A DNA stretch of 64,000 nt from Clostridiales bacterium (lineage in GTDB: Bacteria > Bacillota > Clostridia > Caldicoprobacterales > DTU083). Under the pieces are notes generated by a model that was not told where the DNA came from, did not search any database, and worked only from the letters and a program-made list of their open reading frames with translations. The DNA is taken from assembly GCA_012842605.1 (NCBI GenBank), contig DUSN01000062.1, forward strand, positions 1 through 64,000, given 5' to 3'. The position numbers and the translations under genes are program-made. Positions 17,131 to 60,405 of this stretch are shown one piece after another; within the stretch, counting starts at the first letter, position 1; each line of letters opens with the position of its first letter.

Positions 17131-18394
<1,264 letters not shown>

Positions 18395-35755: not shown

Positions 35756-35805
35756 GGGGACAGTTCTCAATTATCTGATATCTTAAAAAAATGAGAACTG
35801 TCCCC
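35756..35805. repeat. REP-like inverted pair between sigF and spoVA
   Basis: GGGGACAGTTCTCA (35756-35769) and TGAGAACTGTCCCC (35792-35805) form a perfect 14-bp stem with a 22-nt loop. This is the cleanest complete unit of the family in the window. Confidence 0.9.
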
Positions 35806-45911: not shown

Positions 45912-45943
45912 TGGGGACAGTTAATGGGGACAGTTCTCAATTA
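45912..45943. repeat. REP-like repeat pair at the PBP stop codon
   Basis: A truncated head GGGGACAG (45913-45920) is followed 13 bp on by a full GGGGACAGTTCTCAATT (45926-45942). The array begins one base after the PBP stop. Confidence 0.85.
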
Positions 45944-46040: not shown

Positions 46041-46727
46041 TCAGCCCAGTTCTTTCAGCTTTTCTTCTATTTTTTCACGACTAATAGTGCTCAAAGCAGA
46101 TATATTGCATTCCAATGCCTTTTCCAGCATTTCCCTGGCTTTTTCCAATTCTCCCCGCTGTTTATAAATATCCCCAAGATAATACAAAGTAACTGCCTGA
46201 TCTCCCTTTTGCTCATAAGCTTTTTGGAAATATAAAAATGCATTGTCCATATCACCCATGCGATAATAGGTCTGCCCTATATTATCCAACACAACCGGAT
46301 CAGTGTCATCATATTCCAATGCGTTCAGGTTGAATTTCAAAGCTTCTTCATAGTCTCCCTTTTCTATGAGCAAATAACCCAATGTACCGTAAGTTCTGGA
46401 GTTTTTCAGTTTGTTGTGGAGTTCCCTCATTCTTTCTATGGCTGCATCCAGATCACCTAACTTCCAGTAAACAAGGGACAAGTTTATTTTTGCATTGTTT
46501 TTTACACTCTCATTTCTTGGGTAAAACACCAATATTTTGTCAAAGATTGCCCTTGCCTCCTCAAAATAACCTGAGCGCAGCAGCAGAACTCCATGTGCCA
46601 TTCGATAATTAGGATTGGATACATCATTTTTTTCTGCTTTCTTATACCAATCTAAAGCTTTGTCAAGTTTACCTCTGGAATGATTATAATAGCCTAGAAA
46701 GCCATAAATATTACCTTTTAACCCCAT
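46041..46727 (-). CDS. Tetratricopeptide repeat protein
   Basis: This 228-residue soluble protein is made almost wholly of about six TPR units (for example LDKALDWYKKAEKNDVSNPNYRMAHGVLLL and GDYEEALKFNLNALEYDDTDPVVLDNIGQTYY). TPRs bind other proteins. ATG at 46727 has AAAGGAG upstream and overlaps the mrfB end by 10 bp. Co-expression with mrfAB suggests it may be an added partner of that repair pair, which is inference. Confidence 0.9.
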   Translation of the reverse strand: MGLKGNIYGFLGYYNHSRGKLDKALDWYKKAEKNDVSNPNYRMAHGVLLLRSGYFEEARAIFDKILVFYPRNESVKNNAKINLSLVYWKLGDLDAAIERMRELHNKLKNSRTYGTLGYLLIEKGDYEEALKFNLNALEYDDTDPVVLDNIGQTYYRMGDMDNAFLYFQKAYEQKGDQAVTLYYLGDIYKQRGELEKAREMLEKALECNISALSTISREKIEEKLKELG

Positions 46728-48088
46728 TGTTCAATACTCCTTTCAATCTTCTTTAACAGACGTCTTTTTCTTGTAAACAGTTCATCTCTCAGTTTAGATG
46801 AACCGTTATTATAGTCACCGTTGTTCCGAAGCCTGCTCGCCAGCTGTATGGCTCTTTCTGTACACTCAAGTGCTTTTTTATAGTCCTTTTTGCCATGTTC
46901 CAGGTACTTGGCCATCTCAACAAGAGGAAATATCAGCATGCTGCCCTCTTCCCCCGCCAATTCCTCCCACAGATTCATGGCTTCTTCAGGCCCGTCATGC
47001 CTCTTTCTTAAATAAGCAAATCGCTTTTTTGCATCTACCTTAAGTGAATGTATCACAGCAGTATCAATGCAGCATTTATAGCACTCCGAAGCTTCTTGAA
47101 TTCTATGGTTTCTTTCCAGTTCTTTTGCTATACTCAATAACTCATGGGGATTTGCATAGCCAATCGGATTTTTGTACAATTTGCTTATATGTATCAGCAA
47201 AGCAGCCAAAGCCGCAATATCCCATTCGTTATGTTTTATTACCTGCTTCATAGCATCAGTTTTTCTTGTTTCCAGATAATCAAAATAAATCTTTGGTATC
47301 AATTGTCCCGGAATGTCATTTTTCCTTTGCTGTTTAAGAATTTTATCCTCGATAGAAACAAGGGAACAGCTCTCTAAAAAATTTCCCCATAACCGCCTTG
47401 CTACATGCAGCAAATCCAGGTGCGAATCCTCCCAGTACAAAGGCCGGAGCCTGGAATATACAAAACGGCTCTCCAGCAACGGCCAGTCAAAGGCTTTTCC
47501 ATTAAATGTAACAAGTACTCGAAAATTTTTCAGTACATCCAGGACTGCTAATAACATAGGATATTCTTCGTCAAAGTCACGCATCAGATACTGCTCTATC
47601 ACTAACCCGTTGTCCGTAAAATAGCCTATTCCTATTAAGAACGGGTAAGTACCTGTTCCACCCGCCAAGCCGGTAGTTTCAGTATCTAACAACACTATAT
47701 CCTGAATACAAATATCGCGGTCTAATCTTGTCCACCATCTATTATCACTAAAGCTGGATGCCCACAGATCGGACAAATTAACTGAACCATATATTGTACT
47801 CTTACCATATATCGTTCGTTTCCTGATAAATGACCCATATGCTCCTATGATTGCCTGCCCGCCGAAATCCTCCATCCTTTCATTGCAGCCGACTGTTTTT
47901 CTGTCCGTATCAACTTTATTTCCATTGTTTATGGATTTATATATGGGCTCATATGTGTCCAGGCTGCCATCATTTTCCGTGTAAGCAGTTTGTTCATGAA
48001 CAGGCCGCTCTAAATTTCCGGCATCCGGATTATGCAAAGGGGAGTTGGATGACATTGCCTTGAGCTTGTTCTTCAAATTGGGTATCAC
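46718..48088 (-). CDS. mrfB: DEDDh exonuclease with TPR tail, MrfB/YprB family
   Basis: This protein of about 456 residues has an RNase H-like DEDDh exonuclease domain. Catalytic residues lie in VLLDTETTGLAGG, LVTFNGKAFDWPLLESRF and KHNEWDIAALAALL. A helical TPR-like region follows. MrfB in B. subtilis (YprB) acts with helicase MrfA in repair of mitomycin C damage. The start is uncertain: GTG 48088 or TTG 48091 behind GGGAGG. Either overlaps the end of mrfA by about 60 bp. Confidence 0.9.
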   Translation of the reverse strand: MIPNLKNKLKAMSSNSPLHNPDAGNLERPVHEQTAYTENDGSLDTYEPIYKSINNGNKVDTDRKTVGCNERMEDFGGQAIIGAYGSFIRKRTIYGKSTIYGSVNLSDLWASSFSDNRWWTRLDRDICIQDIVLLDTETTGLAGGTGTYPFLIGIGYFTDNGLVIEQYLMRDFDEEYPMLLAVLDVLKNFRVLVTFNGKAFDWPLLESRFVYSRLRPLYWEDSHLDLLHVARRLWGNFLESCSLVSIEDKILKQQRKNDIPGQLIPKIYFDYLETRKTDAMKQVIKHNEWDIAALAALLIHISKLYKNPIGYANPHELLSIAKELERNHRIQEASECYKCCIDTAVIHSLKVDAKKRFAYLRKRHDGPEEAMNLWEELAGEEGSMLIFPLVEMAKYLEHGKKDYKKALECTERAIQLASRLRNNGDYNNGSSKLRDELFTRKRRLLKKIERSIEQWG

Positions 48089-50345
48089 CAAGTATTCCTC
48101 CCAGAATTTTTTGTGCCATATATTTGCCATTAGCTGATACCTCAGCAGCAGGTCCGACACAAGCTGGACAACCACTTTCGCAATAGCAGTTCGATATTAC
48201 CTCATATGCTTTTTTAAACAACTCCAGATGAATCTCATAAAGCCGCTCACTGAAACCAATACCGCCAGGACAGCTGTCATAGATATAGATTGTGGGTTTA
48301 TGAGTAAAAGGAGATTTAACATGATATACAACATGGATATCACGGGGATCACACATCAGGTAAAGCGGTGCTATATGTCCTAAGACATTGGCTATTCCCA
48401 TCAATCCGTTCTGCAAATCATCCTGGCTTTCGATGCCTTTCGGAATATCATTCAATGTCATCCAATAGGCTGTTGTCTGCAGTTCCATTTCCGGTAAACG
48501 AACAGGCCCCCAGCCCAGGTTCTCATGTGTATCAAACTTTATCTTCTTGAACATGGTAACGAGAGATGTTACCATGACATCACCCCAGCTTCTGCCTGTC
48601 TTCCCCTCATCCTTTGTGCTAAATACATCCAAAACCTTTAAAGTAACTGCCAGGTTGGCATCAGTATAATAATCCACATCCACTTTTCTTACATATGCCT
48701 TCTTTTCCTCAAAATCCAGTTTTTCAACCTGATACTGGACACCTTCATGAATGTAAATGGCTTCCTCATGGAGCAGCTGTGGTGCACTGAAGCGATCCAT
48801 TTCACCAATTACCCGGTGCTGTGGAGTGGTTATATCTATAATGATAAAGTTTTCATTGGCAGCTGTACGAAGGCTGACTGAATCAGCCGGAAAATTGTCC
48901 GCTGTCCAGTACCAGCGGCTGCCTACATGCCGCAGCACCTTTTCCTCTTCCAGAAACTCCAGTATTTGATCTAATGAATCAACTCCGAAGGTTTCTCCGT
49001 CTTCAAACGGCAGCTCGAAAGCAGCACATTTGATATGGGACATTAGAATATACAGGTTATTGGGATTGATTAGTCCGTGTTCAGGACTGGATTCAAGGAA
49101 AAATTCAGGATGCTGTATAATATATTGATCCAGCGGATTGCTGCTGGCAACTATCATTGCAAGAGCTGTATCATTTCTGCGCCCTGCCCGGCCGGCCTGC
49201 TGCCATGTGCTTGCTATAGTACCGGGATAACCGCACATTATGCATGCCTGCAGCCTTCCTATGTCAATGCCCAGCTCAAGCGCATTGGTGCTGACTACAC
49301 CTAATATATTGCCTGATCTGAGCCCTTGTTCAATTTCACGCCTCTGGCTTGGCAGATAGCCGCCGCGATATCCTCTGACACTGTTGGATTTGCCCAGCTT
49401 ATCCTGTACCAATTGCTTCAGATAGGTGACCAGAACTTCCACAGTAAGACGGCTTTTGGCAAATAAAATAGTTTGTATTCCATTAAGTATAAAATTGGTG
49501 GCAAGCCTTCTTGTTTCTAAAAGAGAGCTTCTCCTAATGCCTAATTGCTTGTTCACTACAGGTGGATTGTAGAATATCATATGTTTTTTGCCGGACGGAG
49601 CACCGTTTTCATCTATTAGTTCCACTTCCTGCCCAATAATGCGCTCAGTCAGTTCTTTGGGGTTTGCTATAGTTGCTGAGCAGCAGATGAATTGCGGATC
49701 AGATCCATAGAATTTGCAAATACGGTGCAATCGGCGAAGGACATTGGCTAAATGGCTTCCGAATATCCCCCTATAAGAATGAATCTCATCTATTACAACA
49801 AACTTAAGATTCTCAAACAATTTAACCCATTTTGTATGATGAGGCATTATCCCGGAATGAAGCATATCAGGATTGGTAACAACAATATGGCCGGCTTGGC
49901 GGATTGCCTTCCTGGCGCTGACTGGTGTATCTCCATCATATGTATATGTCTTGATAGGATGGCCCAGCAAGTCCATAATTTCATGCAGCTCACTCACCTG
50001 ATCCTGGGACAGCGCTTTTGTTGGGAACAAATACAATGCTCTTGCATCGTCGTTATTCAGTATTTCATTAATAACAGGAAGATTATAACAGAGTGTCTTT
50101 CCTGATGCAGTAGGAGTTACTACAACTATATTTTTTCGCTGGAATACCAATTCAACTGCTTTGGACTGATGTGAGTACAGCTGATGTATGCCTTTCTTTT
50201 TTAGTACTATTTCCAGCTCAGGTCGCAGCCCTTTGGGAAATGAGCCATACACCGCACTCTTGGATTCCATTTCTTTCCAATATGTAATATTTTGCATGAT
50301 TTCCGGGCTGCTGCGTATATGATCTACCAGTTGATCAATATTCAT
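48030..50345 (-). CDS. mrfA: DEAD/DEAH-box helicase MrfA (YprA) with DUF1998 zinc domain
   Basis: This 771-residue superfamily 2 helicase has motif I PTASGKT, motif II DEIH, motif III SATIANP, and motif VI QQAGRAGRR. The C-terminal DUF1998 domain has four clustered Cys in NCYCESGCPACVG, as in MrfA, where they bind zinc. MrfA unwinds DNA 3' to 5' and works with MrfB on mitomycin C lesions. ATG follows AAGGGG. No LexA box was seen in its promoter. Confidence 0.94.
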   Translation of the reverse strand: MNIDQLVDHIRSSPEIMQNITYWKEMESKSAVYGSFPKGLRPELEIVLKKKGIHQLYSHQSKAVELVFQRKNIVVVTPTASGKTLCYNLPVINEILNNDDARALYLFPTKALSQDQVSELHEIMDLLGHPIKTYTYDGDTPVSARKAIRQAGHIVVTNPDMLHSGIMPHHTKWVKLFENLKFVVIDEIHSYRGIFGSHLANVLRRLHRICKFYGSDPQFICCSATIANPKELTERIIGQEVELIDENGAPSGKKHMIFYNPPVVNKQLGIRRSSLLETRRLATNFILNGIQTILFAKSRLTVEVLVTYLKQLVQDKLGKSNSVRGYRGGYLPSQRREIEQGLRSGNILGVVSTNALELGIDIGRLQACIMCGYPGTIASTWQQAGRAGRRNDTALAMIVASSNPLDQYIIQHPEFFLESSPEHGLINPNNLYILMSHIKCAAFELPFEDGETFGVDSLDQILEFLEEEKVLRHVGSRWYWTADNFPADSVSLRTAANENFIIIDITTPQHRVIGEMDRFSAPQLLHEEAIYIHEGVQYQVEKLDFEEKKAYVRKVDVDYYTDANLAVTLKVLDVFSTKDEGKTGRSWGDVMVTSLVTMFKKIKFDTHENLGWGPVRLPEMELQTTAYWMTLNDIPKGIESQDDLQNGLMGIANVLGHIAPLYLMCDPRDIHVVYHVKSPFTHKPTIYIYDSCPGGIGFSERLYEIHLELFKKAYEVISNCYCESGCPACVGPAAEVSANGKYMAQKILGGILGDTQFEEQAQGNVIQLPFA

Positions 50346-50379: not shown

Positions 50380-50408
50380 ATTATATCTATTTTCCCCCTT
50401 AATGTCTA
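50380..50408 (-). promoter_or_regulatory. Promoter of the mrfA operon
   Basis: TAGACA (50408-50403), 17 bp, TATAAT (50385-50380) on the minus strand. REP-like repeats begin four bases upstream of the -35. Confidence 0.65.
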
Positions 50409-50411
50409 TGT

Positions 50412-50450
50412 GGGGACGTTTCTCAATTTTCCTGTGGGGACATTTCTCAG
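50412..50450. repeat. REP-like repeat pair downstream of the RAYT gene
   Basis: GGGGACGTTTCTCAA (50412-50426) and GGGGACATTTCTCAG (50436-50450) in direct orientation, 24 bp apart. They lie between the RAYT terminator and the mrfA promoter. Confidence 0.85.
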
Positions 50451-50506: not shown

Positions 50507-50554
50507 TAAAAAAGAAAGCCAATACTAATCTTTTCACAAAGGATAGCATGGCTT
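50507..50554 (-). terminator. Terminator of the RAYT gene
   Basis: On the minus strand AAGCCATGCTATC pairs imperfectly with GATTAGTATTGGCTT, followed by TCTTTTTTATG. Confidence 0.6.
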
Positions 50555-50624: not shown

Positions 50625-50660
50625 CTGCATAAAATACAGTATCTATTATGTATTATGCAG
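50625..50660 (-). repeat. Hairpin over the RAYT stop codon
   Basis: CTGCATAAaaTACA (50625-50638) pairs with TGTATTATGCAG (50649-50660), with a two-base bulge. The TAA stop (50653-50655) lies in one arm. It could be the transposon end recognised by the transposase, or only an mRNA end structure. Confidence 0.5.
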
Positions 50661-51588
50661 CATTTTTCAGAAGTTCACTAAAAATCTGCGAATATAAGGT
50701 GTGTCCGCTATTTATAAGTTCATACCCCCTATCACATAATTGTGAACAACAGGCTATAGTTATAGAAGGTATTATACGACATATTTCTCTATAACTTAAT
50801 CCTGCTAAAACTCTCAGGACATATGCACAGAACGCCCTGTAATTAATCAGTTCCCTTTTAGCCTTCCATGCAATATTTATAATATTATCATGCGCAGAGC
50901 CTGTCAGTTTACTGGATACGTAACTTACCACATTATCGGGTGAAATGCTTCTCAATATTATGCTTCTACCACTGATATATTCATTTTCAGCAGCAGTAGA
51001 AAATTGCTCATCATAATCCTTTAAATTATCTGTTTTATTTTGATACTTGACAAATTCATAGTATTTCTTTATAAAGCTCTCTCCATCAGCATGAAAAAGC
51101 TCCATTATAAAGCTCTTATCTATAATCTTATGGGTGTCTTCCCGTTTGCCTATATAGATTCCATATGAAGAATAGGGATAATCCTCTTCCCTGCCGTTAT
51201 ATTCGGGAATATCCTTAGGATTGTTGTGTATATAAGCAGATACTGCTAAGTTATACCGTTCTGAAGATAATATCCTGCTTTGAAATCTATCCTGGAATAA
51301 ATGCCCGTGCCTATTATATTTTGTATTGTAATATCTAACATAAGCCGTATTCAAACTGTGCATAAATTTCGACACATCAAAACCTTTAGGATCCAGATGA
51401 ATATGAACATGGTTATTCATCAAGCAGTATGCATATACACTAGCTTGGTATTTATCTGTATAACGTTTGAGCAAAGCCAAATAGTAGTCCTTGTCCTCAT
51501 TTTCCCTAAACAGAAGTATTTCTGAGGAACTTCTGCTCATAATGTGATAGATAGCCAGTTCATGCTTTTGCCGTGCTCTTCTGGGCAT
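50653..51588 (-). CDS. REP-associated tyrosine transposase (RAYT, IS200-like Y1)
   Basis: This protein of about 311 residues has the Y1 HUH fold: CLMNNHVHIHL gives the metal-binding HxH (H60, H62). The YVRYYNTKY segment near residues 83-90 holds the candidate catalytic tyrosine, and RHGHLFQDRF is typical of RAYTs. A long C-terminal part has a helix-turn-helix-like LSYREICRIIPSITIACCSQ. RAYTs nick single-stranded REP hairpins. ATG at 51588 has AGGTGG upstream. The gene seems intact, has a LexA box promoter, and is flanked by REP-like repeats on both sides. Confidence 0.9.
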   Translation of the reverse strand: MPRRARQKHELAIYHIMSRSSSEILLFRENEDKDYYLALLKRYTDKYQASVYAYCLMNNHVHIHLDPKGFDVSKFMHSLNTAYVRYYNTKYNRHGHLFQDRFQSRILSSERYNLAVSAYIHNNPKDIPEYNGREEDYPYSSYGIYIGKREDTHKIIDKSFIMELFHADGESFIKKYYEFVKYQNKTDNLKDYDEQFSTAAENEYISGRSIILRSISPDNVVSYVSSKLTGSAHDNIINIAWKAKRELINYRAFCAYVLRVLAGLSYREICRIIPSITIACCSQLCDRGYELINSGHTLYSQIFSELLKNAA

Positions 51589-51646: not shown

Positions 51647-51676
51647 ATTTTACCATAGAACACATGTTCGTGTAAA
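51647..51676 (-). promoter_or_regulatory. RAYT promoter with LexA/DinR box
   Basis: TTTACA (51676-51671), 18 bp, TAAAAT (51652-51647) on the minus strand. GAACACATGTTC (51658-51669) fits the Firmicute SOS box GAAC-N4-GTTC and fills the spacer. Twenty-two of 23 positions match the dinB promoter block. Confidence 0.78.
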
Positions 51677-51787: not shown

Positions 51788-51837
51788 GGGACATTTCACA
51801 ATAATATTAGTAAGTAATAAAATTGAGAACTGTCCCC
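51788..51837. repeat. REP-like inverted pair between lpd and the RAYT gene
   Basis: GGGACATTTCACAA (51788-51801) and ATTGAGAACTGTCCCC (51822-51837) pair over 13 of 15 positions with a 20-nt loop. The array ends six bases from the lpd stop codon. Confidence 0.85.
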
Positions 51838-51843
51838 ATTATT

Positions 51844-53295: not shown

Positions 53296-54636
53296 TCAGA
53301 ACAACGCACGAATCGGATCCTCAATAATATCTTTCAAATCTTTAAGGAAGGCTGCTCCTGCTGCTCCGTCAATTACCCTGTGGTCACATGAAAGAGTCAT
53401 CTTCATTTGTGTTTGAATTGTAATATTATCGTCCTGATCAACTGCCGGAACCTTTTTCATTTCTCCGACAGCTAAAATAGCTGAACCCGGCGGATTAATT
53501 ACAGCAGTAAACTCTTCAATCCCAAATGAGCCAAGGTTGCTTATAGTAAATCCTGCATTCTGATATTCATCGGGAGCCAATTTATTGTTTCTGGCCTTTT
53601 CTATCAATACCAGAAGTTCCTTATTAATTGCAATTACGCCTTTATTTCCGCAATCACGGACAACAGGAGTTATCAACCCGTCAGGCTGTGCAACAGCCAA
53701 CCCAATGTCAACTTGTTTTCTTTGAATAATTGTATCTCCATTCCAGGTTGCATTCACCATAGGATGCTTTTTGAGTGCTTCAGCAGCATACTTAATAAAA
53801 AATGCATTAAAGGAAACTTTTTCCTGCAGGGATTCATTTAATCTCTTTCTGGTTTGAATAAGATTGTCTACATTTACAGAGACAGTCAGATAATAATGAG
53901 GTGCGCTGAATTTGGACTCCGACAGACGCTGAGCAATAATTTTTCTCTTTTGCGATACCGGAATCTCAATATCACCGACAGCTGCGACAACAGCTTGTAC
54001 CGGCGTTGAAATCTTAAAGGCTTGCTGTTCTTTCCCTTGCTGAATCTCAATTTTCTGTGCTTCAGTCACATTATATCCTTTAGCCATACTGCTTATTTCA
54101 GTCACATTGCTCTTATCAAGTTTATCCTTCATGTATCTTTCTATATCGGCTTTAACTATGCGGCCAGCCGGACCGCTTCCATTAATATCGCTTAAATCAA
54201 TTTTATTCATTTCTGCTATTCTACGTGCTAAAGGCGATGCTTTAATACGAGTATCACCATATGCTTTTATTGATTCATTTTTTATATATATTTGAGAACT
54301 GTCCCCAAAGTCATTTTTGCTTAATTCTTGAGAACTGTCCCCACCATCGATTTTTTGAGAACTGTCCCCATCATCAAGTATTTGAGAAATGTCCCCGAGG
54401 TTGTCGCCAATGATGGCAATGACCTCACCTACTGCTGCTTTTTCACCTTCCTGGACCAGAATTTTAAGCAAAATTCCTTCTGCAGTGGATTCATAGTCCA
54501 TTGTAGCCTTATCGGTTTCTACTTCACACAATATATCACCGGCCTCAACCCGGTCTCCTTCTTTTTTATGCCACCTAGCCAAAATTCCTTCTTCCATGGT
54601 AGGTGACAAGGCAGTCATAAAAACTTTTTCAGCCAT
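53296..54636 (-). CDS. pdhC: Pyruvate dehydrogenase E2, dihydrolipoamide acetyltransferase
   Basis: This 446-residue E2 has one lipoyl domain (residues 1-80, lysine in EVETDKATMDYES), then a linker (about 80-120), a peripheral subunit-binding domain (KASPLARRIAEMNKIDLSDINGSGPAGRIVKADIERYM), and a catalytic core ending in DHRVIDGAAGAAF with the active-site His. The first linker holds four copies of G-D-(S/I)-S-Q, each encoded by an in-frame REP-like repeat. ATG follows AGGGGG. Confidence 0.96.
   Translation of the reverse strand: MAEKVFMTALSPTMEEGILARWHKKEGDRVEAGDILCEVETDKATMDYESTAEGILLKILVQEGEKAAVGEVIAIIGDNLGDISQILDDGDSSQKIDGGDSSQELSKNDFGDSSQIYIKNESIKAYGDTRIKASPLARRIAEMNKIDLSDINGSGPAGRIVKADIERYMKDKLDKSNVTEISSMAKGYNVTEAQKIEIQQGKEQQAFKISTPVQAVVAAVGDIEIPVSQKRKIIAQRLSESKFSAPHYYLTVSVNVDNLIQTRKRLNESLQEKVSFNAFFIKYAAEALKKHPMVNATWNGDTIIQRKQVDIGLAVAQPDGLITPVVRDCGNKGVIAINKELLVLIEKARNNKLAPDEYQNAGFTISNLGSFGIEEFTAVINPPGSAILAVGEMKKVPAVDQDDNITIQTQMKMTLSCDHRVIDGAAGAAFLKDLKDIIEDPIRALF
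54291..54396. repeat. Four in-frame REP-like repeats inside pdhC
   Basis: TTGAGAACTGTCCCC or the variant TTGAGAAATGTCCCC starts at 54292, 54328, 54355 and 54382. Spacings are 36, 27 and 27 bp, all multiples of three. All copies have the same orientation and encode GDSSQ or GDISQ in the E2 linker. Confidence 0.95.
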
Positions 54637-57250: not shown

Positions 57251-57290
57251 AGTCCCCGGGGACTTTCCCCGGGGACAGTTCTCAATTTTT
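57251..57290. repeat. REP-like repeat with head-to-head palindrome
   Basis: AGTCCCCGGGGACT (57251-57264) is a perfect palindrome of two repeat heads. It is followed by TTCCCC and a full GGGGACAGTTCTCAA (57271-57285). The rest of the 57175-57578 gap is AT-rich, with a possible extended -10 TGATATAAT at 57476-57484 for the Sel1 gene. Confidence 0.8.
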
Positions 57291-58251: not shown

Positions 58252-58755
58252 CTAATAAAACCACTTTGTGGGTAATAGAAAAGTCCATGGTAAAGTAGTA
58301 ACAGCAATAAAAATGGAAACCTTCCATCGCGGCAGTTCTTCTTCAATCAGCTGGTTAAAAGTATAATTATAATTGAAAAGGATAATGCACAATCCGGATA
58401 TTAATACAGACAGCAAGATTAAAATAATTGATAAAACATTGCTGAATGGATCAAAGGATATTCCCCTTATCACTTCATTTGAAAGCCCGAGAAAGTCCTG
58501 CAGGCCCACGCAGGCAAACAGAATAACCGCACCAATGATATCTGCCAGAAAACCAAATAACCAAACTCTTATAATGCTTTTTTTGTAAAATACCAGCCAA
58601 TTTAACTCCTTATGTGGACGAAAGAGGAAGTAAGAGGCAATTACAATTAGTGAGTCAAAGATAAAGTTACCAGCCAAAGTTATAAAGATAACGGGAGGGA
58701 AAAATAATATTAACCATACTGGAAAGATTACATTGTACAGTTTTATTTGCTTCAT
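58252..58755 (-). CDS. Multi-pass membrane protein of unknown function
   Basis: This 167-residue protein has about five hydrophobic helices (starting near residues 10, 35, 62, 102 and 146) and few charged loops. No motif I recognise is visible. ATG follows AAGGGGAG. It stands alone. The 340 bp up to dinB is AT-rich and shows no gene or clear element. Confidence 0.8.
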   Translation of the reverse strand: MKQIKLYNVIFPVWLILFFPPVIFITLAGNFIFDSLIVIASYFLFRPHKELNWLVFYKKSIIRVWLFGFLADIIGAVILFACVGLQDFLGLSNEVIRGISFDPFSNVLSIILILLSVLISGLCIILFNYNYTFNQLIEEELPRWKVSIFIAVTTLPWTFLLPTKWFY

Positions 58756-59095: not shown

Positions 59096-60355
59096 CTACA
59101 AAATACTGGTCATAACCGGGTAGGAAGCGTCATCGCTCAGTCCGCCCTCCAATGGGGCAAGGCCGCTCCAGAGAAAGTTGGAGCGAAAAATGGAACCAGG
59201 ACCGAATTTCATTCGTATCTGATCTACCGCCCGGTCTACCTTCTTCTGCTTTTCCCAATCCCTTTCAAACATGGAAAGCTGGACATTACTGGCCGGAGAC
59301 AAATCACTGACTCGTACGCCAAGATGACGAATGGGTTCTCCTTTCCAGGCCTCATCAAATAATTGCTTGCAATACCCGTAAATGGCAGTGGTGCTGTCAA
59401 TGGGTGACTGGATTTTCAGTTGATGGCTGTATAATGTCAGATCCTCTGCCCTCTTGATGGAAACTGAAATCACCCGGCAGCACAGGCCTTCAAAGCGCAG
59501 GCGCATGCCAACTGTTTCTACCAGGGACAGTAGAACCTGGTACGCTGTTTCTTTGTCCTCCACATCAAAATGAATGGTCGTAGAATTTCCCATCCCTTTT
59601 ATTACTTCCCTTGACGAGAGAGAAACCGGAGAGTCCTCAATTCCGTTGGCATAATTCCAAATAAGCTCTCCCCAGCTTTTGAACTTATATTTCAGCAACT
59701 CCGGATCACAATTGGCAAGGCTGCCAATGGTATCAATGCCCATTTTACGCAGCTTATACGATGTGGCACGCCCAACCATATACAGTTCCTCCACAGGCAG
59801 GGGCCACATCTTTTCAGGAATTTCCGGGGGGAATAATGTGGAAACCGCATCCGGCTTTTTGAGATCCGAAGCCATCTTGGCCAGCAGCTTATTGGTGCTG
59901 ATTCCTATGCTGACGGTAAAACCCAGCTCTTTCTTAATACACTCCCTAACCTTGTTGGCCGCTTCTATTGATTGACTTTCTTCGATAATCCCGGACATGT
60001 CCATGAAGCATTCGTCTATGCTGAAAACCTGTACCTTGTCAGTAAAACTTTTCAGCAATTCTACCAAAGAATGATGGCAGCACATGTAAAGGGCATAATT
60101 GGGCGGAATAGTGACAAGATGAGGGCATTTCCGTTTTGCCTCCCAAACGGCCTCACCTGTTTTTACTCCGTATTTTTTGGTGGGAGCGCTTTTAGCTAAA
60201 ATAATCCCGTGTCTTGTAGCCTGGGAACCAGCCACCGCAGAAGGGATGTCCCGCAAATCCACCTTCGCCCCGTGCTGAAGCCGATAAACCGCTTCAAATG
60301 ACAAAAAAGCTGAGTTGACATCCACATGAAAAATAAGTTTTTCTTCGTTATTCAT
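59096..60355 (-). CDS. dinB: DNA polymerase IV-type Y-family polymerase
   Basis: This Y-family translesion polymerase of about 419 residues has catalytic carboxylates in FHVDVNSAFLSFEA and VFSIDECFMDMSG. The little-finger domain lies at the C-terminus. The IGISTNKLLAKMASDLKKPDA block is typical of the family. No clear beta-clamp motif is evident, but QLSMF near the end (residues 370-375) is a good clamp-binding candidate. ATG at 60355 is preferred; 60364 is possible. A LexA box lies in the promoter. Confidence 0.94.
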   Translation of the reverse strand: MNNEEKLIFHVDVNSAFLSFEAVYRLQHGAKVDLRDIPSAVAGSQATRHGIILAKSAPTKKYGVKTGEAVWEAKRKCPHLVTIPPNYALYMCCHHSLVELLKSFTDKVQVFSIDECFMDMSGIIEESQSIEAANKVRECIKKELGFTVSIGISTNKLLAKMASDLKKPDAVSTLFPPEIPEKMWPLPVEELYMVGRATSYKLRKMGIDTIGSLANCDPELLKYKFKSWGELIWNYANGIEDSPVSLSSREVIKGMGNSTTIHFDVEDKETAYQVLLSLVETVGMRLRFEGLCCRVISVSIKRAEDLTLYSHQLKIQSPIDSTTAIYGYCKQLFDEAWKGEPIRHLGVRVSDLSPASNVQLSMFERDWEKQKKVDRAVDQIRMKFGPGSIFRSNFLWSGLAPLEGGLSDDASYPVMTSIL

Positions 60356-60375
60356 ATCCTGCATCACCTATATAT

Positions 60376-60405
60376 ATTGTATTATAGAACATATGTTCGT
60401 GTAAA
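60376..60405 (-). promoter_or_regulatory. dinB promoter with LexA/DinR box
   Basis: TTTACA (60405-60400), 18 bp, TACAAT (60381-60376) on the minus strand, with GAACATATGTTC (60387-60398) in the spacer. It is a perfect GAAC-N4-GTTC SOS box. Confidence 0.85.

Follow-up and report, generated by a model that had tools for sequence, protein, structure and literature searches.

A LexA box in the promoter of a clostridial TIRYT-type Y1 transposase points to SOS control carried within a mobile element

Introduction

Whether DNA damage raises transposition through the supply of the enzyme or only through the supply of single-stranded DNA (ssDNA) is a question debated for decades. In the case of ISDra2, a Y1 element of Deinococcus radiodurans, transposition rises after damage via the availability of ssDNA, and expression of the transposase is not induced (PMC2806898). 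Direct LexA repression and DNA-damage induction in E. coli have been described for the ISCR (IS91-like) HUH transposases (PMC13393415, 2026), a rolling-circle-type family with a proteobacterial CTGT-N8-ACAG box and an antibiotic-resistance context. An in-silico LexA regulon of C. difficile also lists a transposase with a LexA-like site; this site, GAAC....GTTT, lies 217 nt upstream and is given for one strain of the table, with no conservation given (PMC4234289).

The window analyzed here is a stretch of 64,000 nucleotides of a Clostridiales genome, and its transposase is closest to the TIRYT or TnpA_REP subclass 2.1 proteins (PMC3733652, PMC6006769), with which it has in common the Y1 core, the HUH and Y---NP motifs, and a long C-terminal extension. 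The repeats flanking TIRYT genes typically have the tip GGGG[AT][CG]A[CG] (PMC6006769), and the corresponding tips here are GGGGACAG and GGGGACAT; copies in Anaerobacterium chartisolvens start at GGGGACAT. GGGGAC is the common part of the tip, with variation at the last position. In contrast to described TIRYTs, the window element adds a LexA-box promoter and related short repeats dispersed near the gene, and a search of the text of PMC6006769 for SOS found no mention of SOS control. The classical RAYT/REPIN systems of E. coli and Pseudomonas (PMC3116915, PMC8266576) also combine a Y1 transposase, present as a single copy and passed on vertically, with short repeats scattered in the genome, whereas here the repeats are of the GGGGAC rather than the GTAG type and are concentrated near the gene, a LexA box is present, and the NCBIfam cut-off is not reached. 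Unlike in ISDra2, transcription of the transposase itself is predicted to be induced.

Our main reading, which we hold with a probability of about 85%, is that the locus is a Y1 (HUH) transposase element of TIRYT type, with a promoter of its own that LexA would repress. A literature search for LexA with RAYT, TIRYT or Y1 transposases found no report, in agreement with the initial annotation of this DNA, which knew of no established case for RAYTs, although ISCR, another HUH group, is SOS-controlled. A LexA-repressed HUH transposase being already known from ISCR, what is new is the fixation of an SOS operator across a clade of a known element class. Such a clade of Y1 transposases, with the operator inside the mobile unit and with the cultured species A. 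chartisolvens DSM 27016 among its members, makes the question of enzyme versus ssDNA supply directly testable.

Results and Discussion

Transposase and promoter

The transposase gene (50653..51588, minus strand) encodes a protein of 311 aa that matches Y1_Tnp (PF01797) with an E value of 3.2e-14 and has an intact HVH motif (residues 60-62) and Tyr119. H60, H62, Y119, and N123 are invariant in an alignment with 24 relatives, and the Y---NP motif reads YIHNNP, with P124 invariant in a six-row alignment. The score against the classical RAYT model (NCBIfam NF047646) is 43.1 bits, below the curated cut-off of 80. Residues 255-272 give a sub-threshold match to Sigma70_r4_2 (E 0.093), the C-terminal helix-turn-helix of subclass 2.1 being Bac_DnaA_C, HTH_23, or HTH_28. 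Because the inverted GGGGAC-tipped repeats and the long C-terminus fit, the protein is, judged by these sequence features, closer to TIRYT (subclass 2.1-like) than to classical RAYT. The earlier naming of the gene as a RAYT transposase was thus right as to a Y1 transposase with matching short repeats, but not as to the classical RAYT class. Two other Y1 genes of the same genome (L010 and L011; 36%) lack a box.

The candidate LexA box, GAACACATGTTC at 51658-51669 (GAACATGTGTTC on the minus strand), lies inside the 18-nt spacer between the -35 element TTTACA (51671..51676) and the extended -10 element (TGG)TAAAAT (51647..51652), all on the minus strand and placed as the initial annotation had it. 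The promoter block reads CTTTACACGAACATGTGTTCTATGGTAAAAT, that is, CTTTACA-CGAACATGTGTTCTATGG-TAAAAT, and the box is 69 nt from the ATG of the transposase gene. A GAACN4GTTC operator overlapping the promoter corresponds to the arrangement in the Bacillota-type LexA/SOS regulon. This pattern occurs three times in the window against 0.43 expected from shuffling, and in the whole genome CGAACN4GTTC matches eight times, its reversed control pattern 35 times. The box was identified both by pattern and with a scoring matrix constructed from 27 boxes, solely from the lexA regions of nine family genomes and not including the transposase box. In a scan of the window, this matrix ranks the transposase box second at 18.6, after the dinB box at 20.4 and ahead of the next site at 10.0. 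In 250-bp stretches of background, the best score reaches 4.4 at the 95th percentile, and the score of the transposase box is well beyond chance. The genome encodes a LexA (L156) with the cleavage motif VTAGQ, and three boxes of the same type are present at lexA.

The dinB-like gene for a Y-family DNA polymerase (59096..60367, minus strand; IMS and IMS_C domains) has a LexA box at 60387..60398 (minus strand), 8.7 kb from the transposase box and likewise found by pattern and matrix, in a promoter block that reads CTTTACACGAACATATGTTCTATAATACAAT. Position-wise alignment of the two promoters bears out the reported identity at 22 of the first 23 positions; over the whole block of 31 positions, 27 are identical. 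The agreement spans the -35 element, the box, and a few further bases, while the end of the spacer and the -10 element differ, the latter lying outside the matching stretch. A recent duplication of the dinB promoter was considered and is not needed, since this layout recurs in relatives in which the bases are different (CTTTACC...), and the two -10 elements are not alike.

Conservation of the box

Five family genomes (G000, G001, G003, G010, and G012) carry the transposase gene at the same site, between an lpd gene and mrfA. The initial annotation had proposed looking for the box in orthologous promoters, and all five orthologues keep it between CTTTAC and an extended -10 element (TGnTA), with divergent flanks. 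One half-site of the G012 box is degenerate, and G003 has two boxes, of which the one in the spacer has the same degenerate half-site.

On a wider scale, 80 relatives were retrieved from 84,980 species genomes; nearly all of those at or above about 45% identity have boxes, and almost none of those below do. In the first protein tree, all 19 boxed rows fall in one clade of 27 (SH-aLRT 98) and none among the 46 rows outside. Another sample from the class, 391 genomes drawn in part independently of the first set, added new boxed copies, and in the joint tree of 98 relatives the box is found in 28 of the 38 members of one clade, supported by the quick SH-aLRT method alone, and in none of the 60 outside it. 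Gain and loss of the box on the joint tree take 7 changes versus 24.5 in shuffles (0/500 shuffles). The boxed loci L187, L209, L210, L214-L216, and L218 are independent of the discovery of the pattern. All seven distant host genomes tested have LexA and similar boxes.

The box is situated in the promoter spacer, just before or overlapping the -35 element (L083, L085, L086, L209, and L210), or as a dyad CCAAACAnnnGTT(T/C)GG 25 nt before the start codon (L105, L111, L211, and L213). That the operator takes up at least three positions with respect to the promoter in different sub-clades suggests that selection acts on the operator as such. No recognisable box is present in ten of the 38 clade members (L079-L081, L084, L087-L090, L184, and L186), indicating that LexA control is not universal in the clade. 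Three of these copies (L079-L081, from MAG SKW158) reside in a genome that has LexA with boxes and constitute a natural contrast set.

Element boundaries and dispersed repeats

Three copies in A. chartisolvens (L075-L077) are 90-95% alike, with homology running from the GGGGACATTTCTC end inward. The shared part opens exactly with GGGGACATTTCTCAA, which lies 124-139 nt before the ATG, and takes in the boxed promoter and the gene; the sequence outside is unrelated. The box in these copies is weaker (CAAACTCATGTTC, matrix score 11.1). The pattern is similar for the copies in G148, whose common sequence begins at about GGACAGT(T/C)CTCAA. These copy boundaries place the box in the element rather than in a host site and suggest that the unit is mobile in the relatives. 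Comparison strongly supports control of the transposase by LexA, as the earlier annotation had implied: the genome encodes its own LexA and has three such boxes at lexA, 5/5 orthologues and most of the clade (28/38) retain the box, and in multi-copy genomes it lies within the mobile unit.

In the window, the left end is a REP-like repeat, TGAGAACTGTCCCC (51824..51837, plus strand), whose outer tip is GGGGAC on the minus strand; it forms part of an inverted pair and is the counterpart of the element end in the A. chartisolvens copies. Two REP-like repeats were located on the right side by repeat search, TGAGAAATGTCCCC (50436..50449) and TGAGAAACGTCCCC (50412..50425), both on the minus strand, the latter being the probable right end and abutting the -35 element of mrfA. 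The flanking inverted repeats at 51819-51838 and 50411-50430 are 90% alike. The transposase gene is followed by a terminator-like hairpin (50515..50553, minus strand; predicted -14.6 kcal/mol) and then by TCTTTTTT. By sequence, the element comprises short GGGGAC... ends, the LexA-box promoter, the transposase gene, in the window the terminator-like hairpin, and further GGGGAC-type repeats.

The REP-like sequence TGAGAANNGTCCCC has 19 copies in the window genome, 15 of them on the 97-kb contig of the transposase. Eight of 11 repeat clusters fall on 3% of the genome, with P about 1e-10, or 5e-8 without the two clusters that flank the gene, values that are rough given draft contigs and the treatment of clusters as independent. 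In the other four transposase-bearing genomes the clustering points the same way but is weaker (1e-2 to 1e-5 when the flanking clusters are left out). Seven transposase-free genomes contain no copies, whereas G008 (71% complete), in which the transposase was likewise not found, has 12. Given the matching repeats, their co-occurrence with the transposase, and their local clustering, a coupling of repeat mobility to the SOS response is plausible.

Copies of TGAGAANNGTCCCC in the window are located at 18266-18393, 35756-35805, 45926-45939, and 57271-57284, several as inverted pairs and within about 35 kb of the transposase. Further repeats at 54293-54396 lie inside the linker of the E2 (dihydrolipoamide acetyltransferase) gene (53296-54636, minus strand), where GGGGACAGTTCTCAA is translated as GDSSQ. 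About three units occupy the same place in all five transposase-bearing genomes (L162-L165), and none are present in the E2 gene of G006.

Proposed mechanism and alternative explanations

From the known LexA/RecA pathway we infer the following course of events. LexA would sit between the -35 and -10 elements and block transcription in healthy cells; on damage, RecA-ssDNA would promote self-cleavage of LexA and the transposase would be made. The enzyme would then appear at a time of abundant ssDNA, on which HUH enzymes act, and its targets might be the ends of its own element as well as the short dispersed repeats. Retention of the box across many species suggests that production of the transposase is probably confined to times of DNA breakage. 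The single copy between lpd and mrfAB in the family suggests that its role there may lie in repeat dispersal or in nuclease activity at the time of SOS, and not in moving the complete element often.

This last point touches on an alternative that is compatible with LexA control and differs in the role of the enzyme, namely that the protein is a domesticated, immobile single-strand nuclease acting in the SOS response beside MrfAB. The gene is indeed single-copy and syntenic in five genera, with intact catalytic residues, a retained SOS promoter, and a repair neighbour. However, G006 has lost the gene and none was found in G008, dispersed REP-like repeats still accompany the transposase, and multi-copy relatives look mobile. 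We therefore consider domestication unlikely, though deserving of some weight.

A second alternative is that the boxed promoter truly serves mrfAB, the transposase being a passenger in an SOS-controlled repair operon. Downstream of the transposase, and outside the element, lie an mrfA-like helicase gene (48030..50345, minus strand; DEAD, Helicase_C, and MZB/MrfA Zn-binding domains) and an mrfB-like RNase_H_2/TPR exonuclease gene (46718..48175, minus strand). A DEAD helicase with MZB adjoining an RNase_H_2 exonuclease is the make-up of the MrfAB operon, mrfA and mrfB being a mitomycin repair pair (PMC11194089), and an mrfA-like gene occurs in 13/13 family genomes. Five genomes have the box, the transposase gene, and mrfAB in collinear order, and in G006, which has no transposase, a boxed promoter (CTTTACCGAACAAATGTTCAATGATATACT) lies directly before mrfA. 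Nevertheless, mrfA has a separate promoter without a LexA box (TAGACA-17-TATAAT; 50380..50408, minus strand), conserved in outgroups and in relatives with and without the transposase. The terminator-like hairpin after the transposase in the window has clear and comparable counterparts in L014 and L015, with none convincing in L012, and boxed relatives beyond the family have no mrfA neighbour. In a tree of the mrfA genes, G006 falls within the genomes that bear the transposase (98/97 for a group of three), so that its arrangement looks derived. Assignment of the box to mrfAB was rejected as the main reading for these reasons and is improbable. Given its own promoter and the hairpin, mrfAB is apparently a separate transcription unit, and the transposase is most likely the only gene under the SOS promoter.

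In G006 (L045/L161) the ancestral mrfA promoter is replaced by the SOS promoter. We infer a deletion between two TATA-like -10 elements that handed the SOS promoter to mrfA. No REPs were found in G006 by the repeat scan, which the deletion model leaves unexplained, and the sole match to a REP remnant in its E2 gene is ordinary coding sequence. The G006 case suggests a route by which transposon promoters may rewire repair genes. In G008 (L043), a REP-like repeat is still present before mrfA, and a membrane-protein gene, which has a counterpart at 58252-58755 in the window, replaces the transposase and that end of the operon which carries lpd.

A broader scenario, to which we give even odds, is that a clostridial TIRYT lineage built LexA control into its mobile unit, timing the transposase to its ssDNA substrate; that in one family the element settled beside mrfAB and seeded repeats mainly nearby; and that loss of the element, in at least one lineage, left mrfAB with the SOS promoter, giving an SOS-inducible repair operon.

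The box might instead be an ancestral relic kept by chance, with no present LexA control, as the ten clade members that have lost it and the degenerate state of some boxes could suggest; yet it is kept down to about 40% protein identity while the flanks are unalignable, and the dyad persists in three layouts, which makes chance retention very improbable. Palindromic operators are also common among autoregulated genes. Autorepression through the C-terminal helix-turn-helix of the transposase, with an incidental likeness to LexA boxes, would agree with the DNA-binding C-terminal domains of subclass 2.1 proteins (PMC6006769), but the same motif occurs at lexA (three sites) and dinB with no transposase there, the lexA-trained matrix picks out the box, and the other Y1 genes lack it, leaving this explanation hardly credible.

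Apart from the element, the genome of the window has two more good LexA boxes (L001 1501-1513, G000:C39:12948; L007 1501-1513, G000:C124:42745), the former preceding a small gene (MKVLMKPIKMIAWFNEDG...) and the latter at the start of a sigma-factor-like gene. Several host genomes encode second LexA-like proteins (L174-L178), with no boxes nearby.
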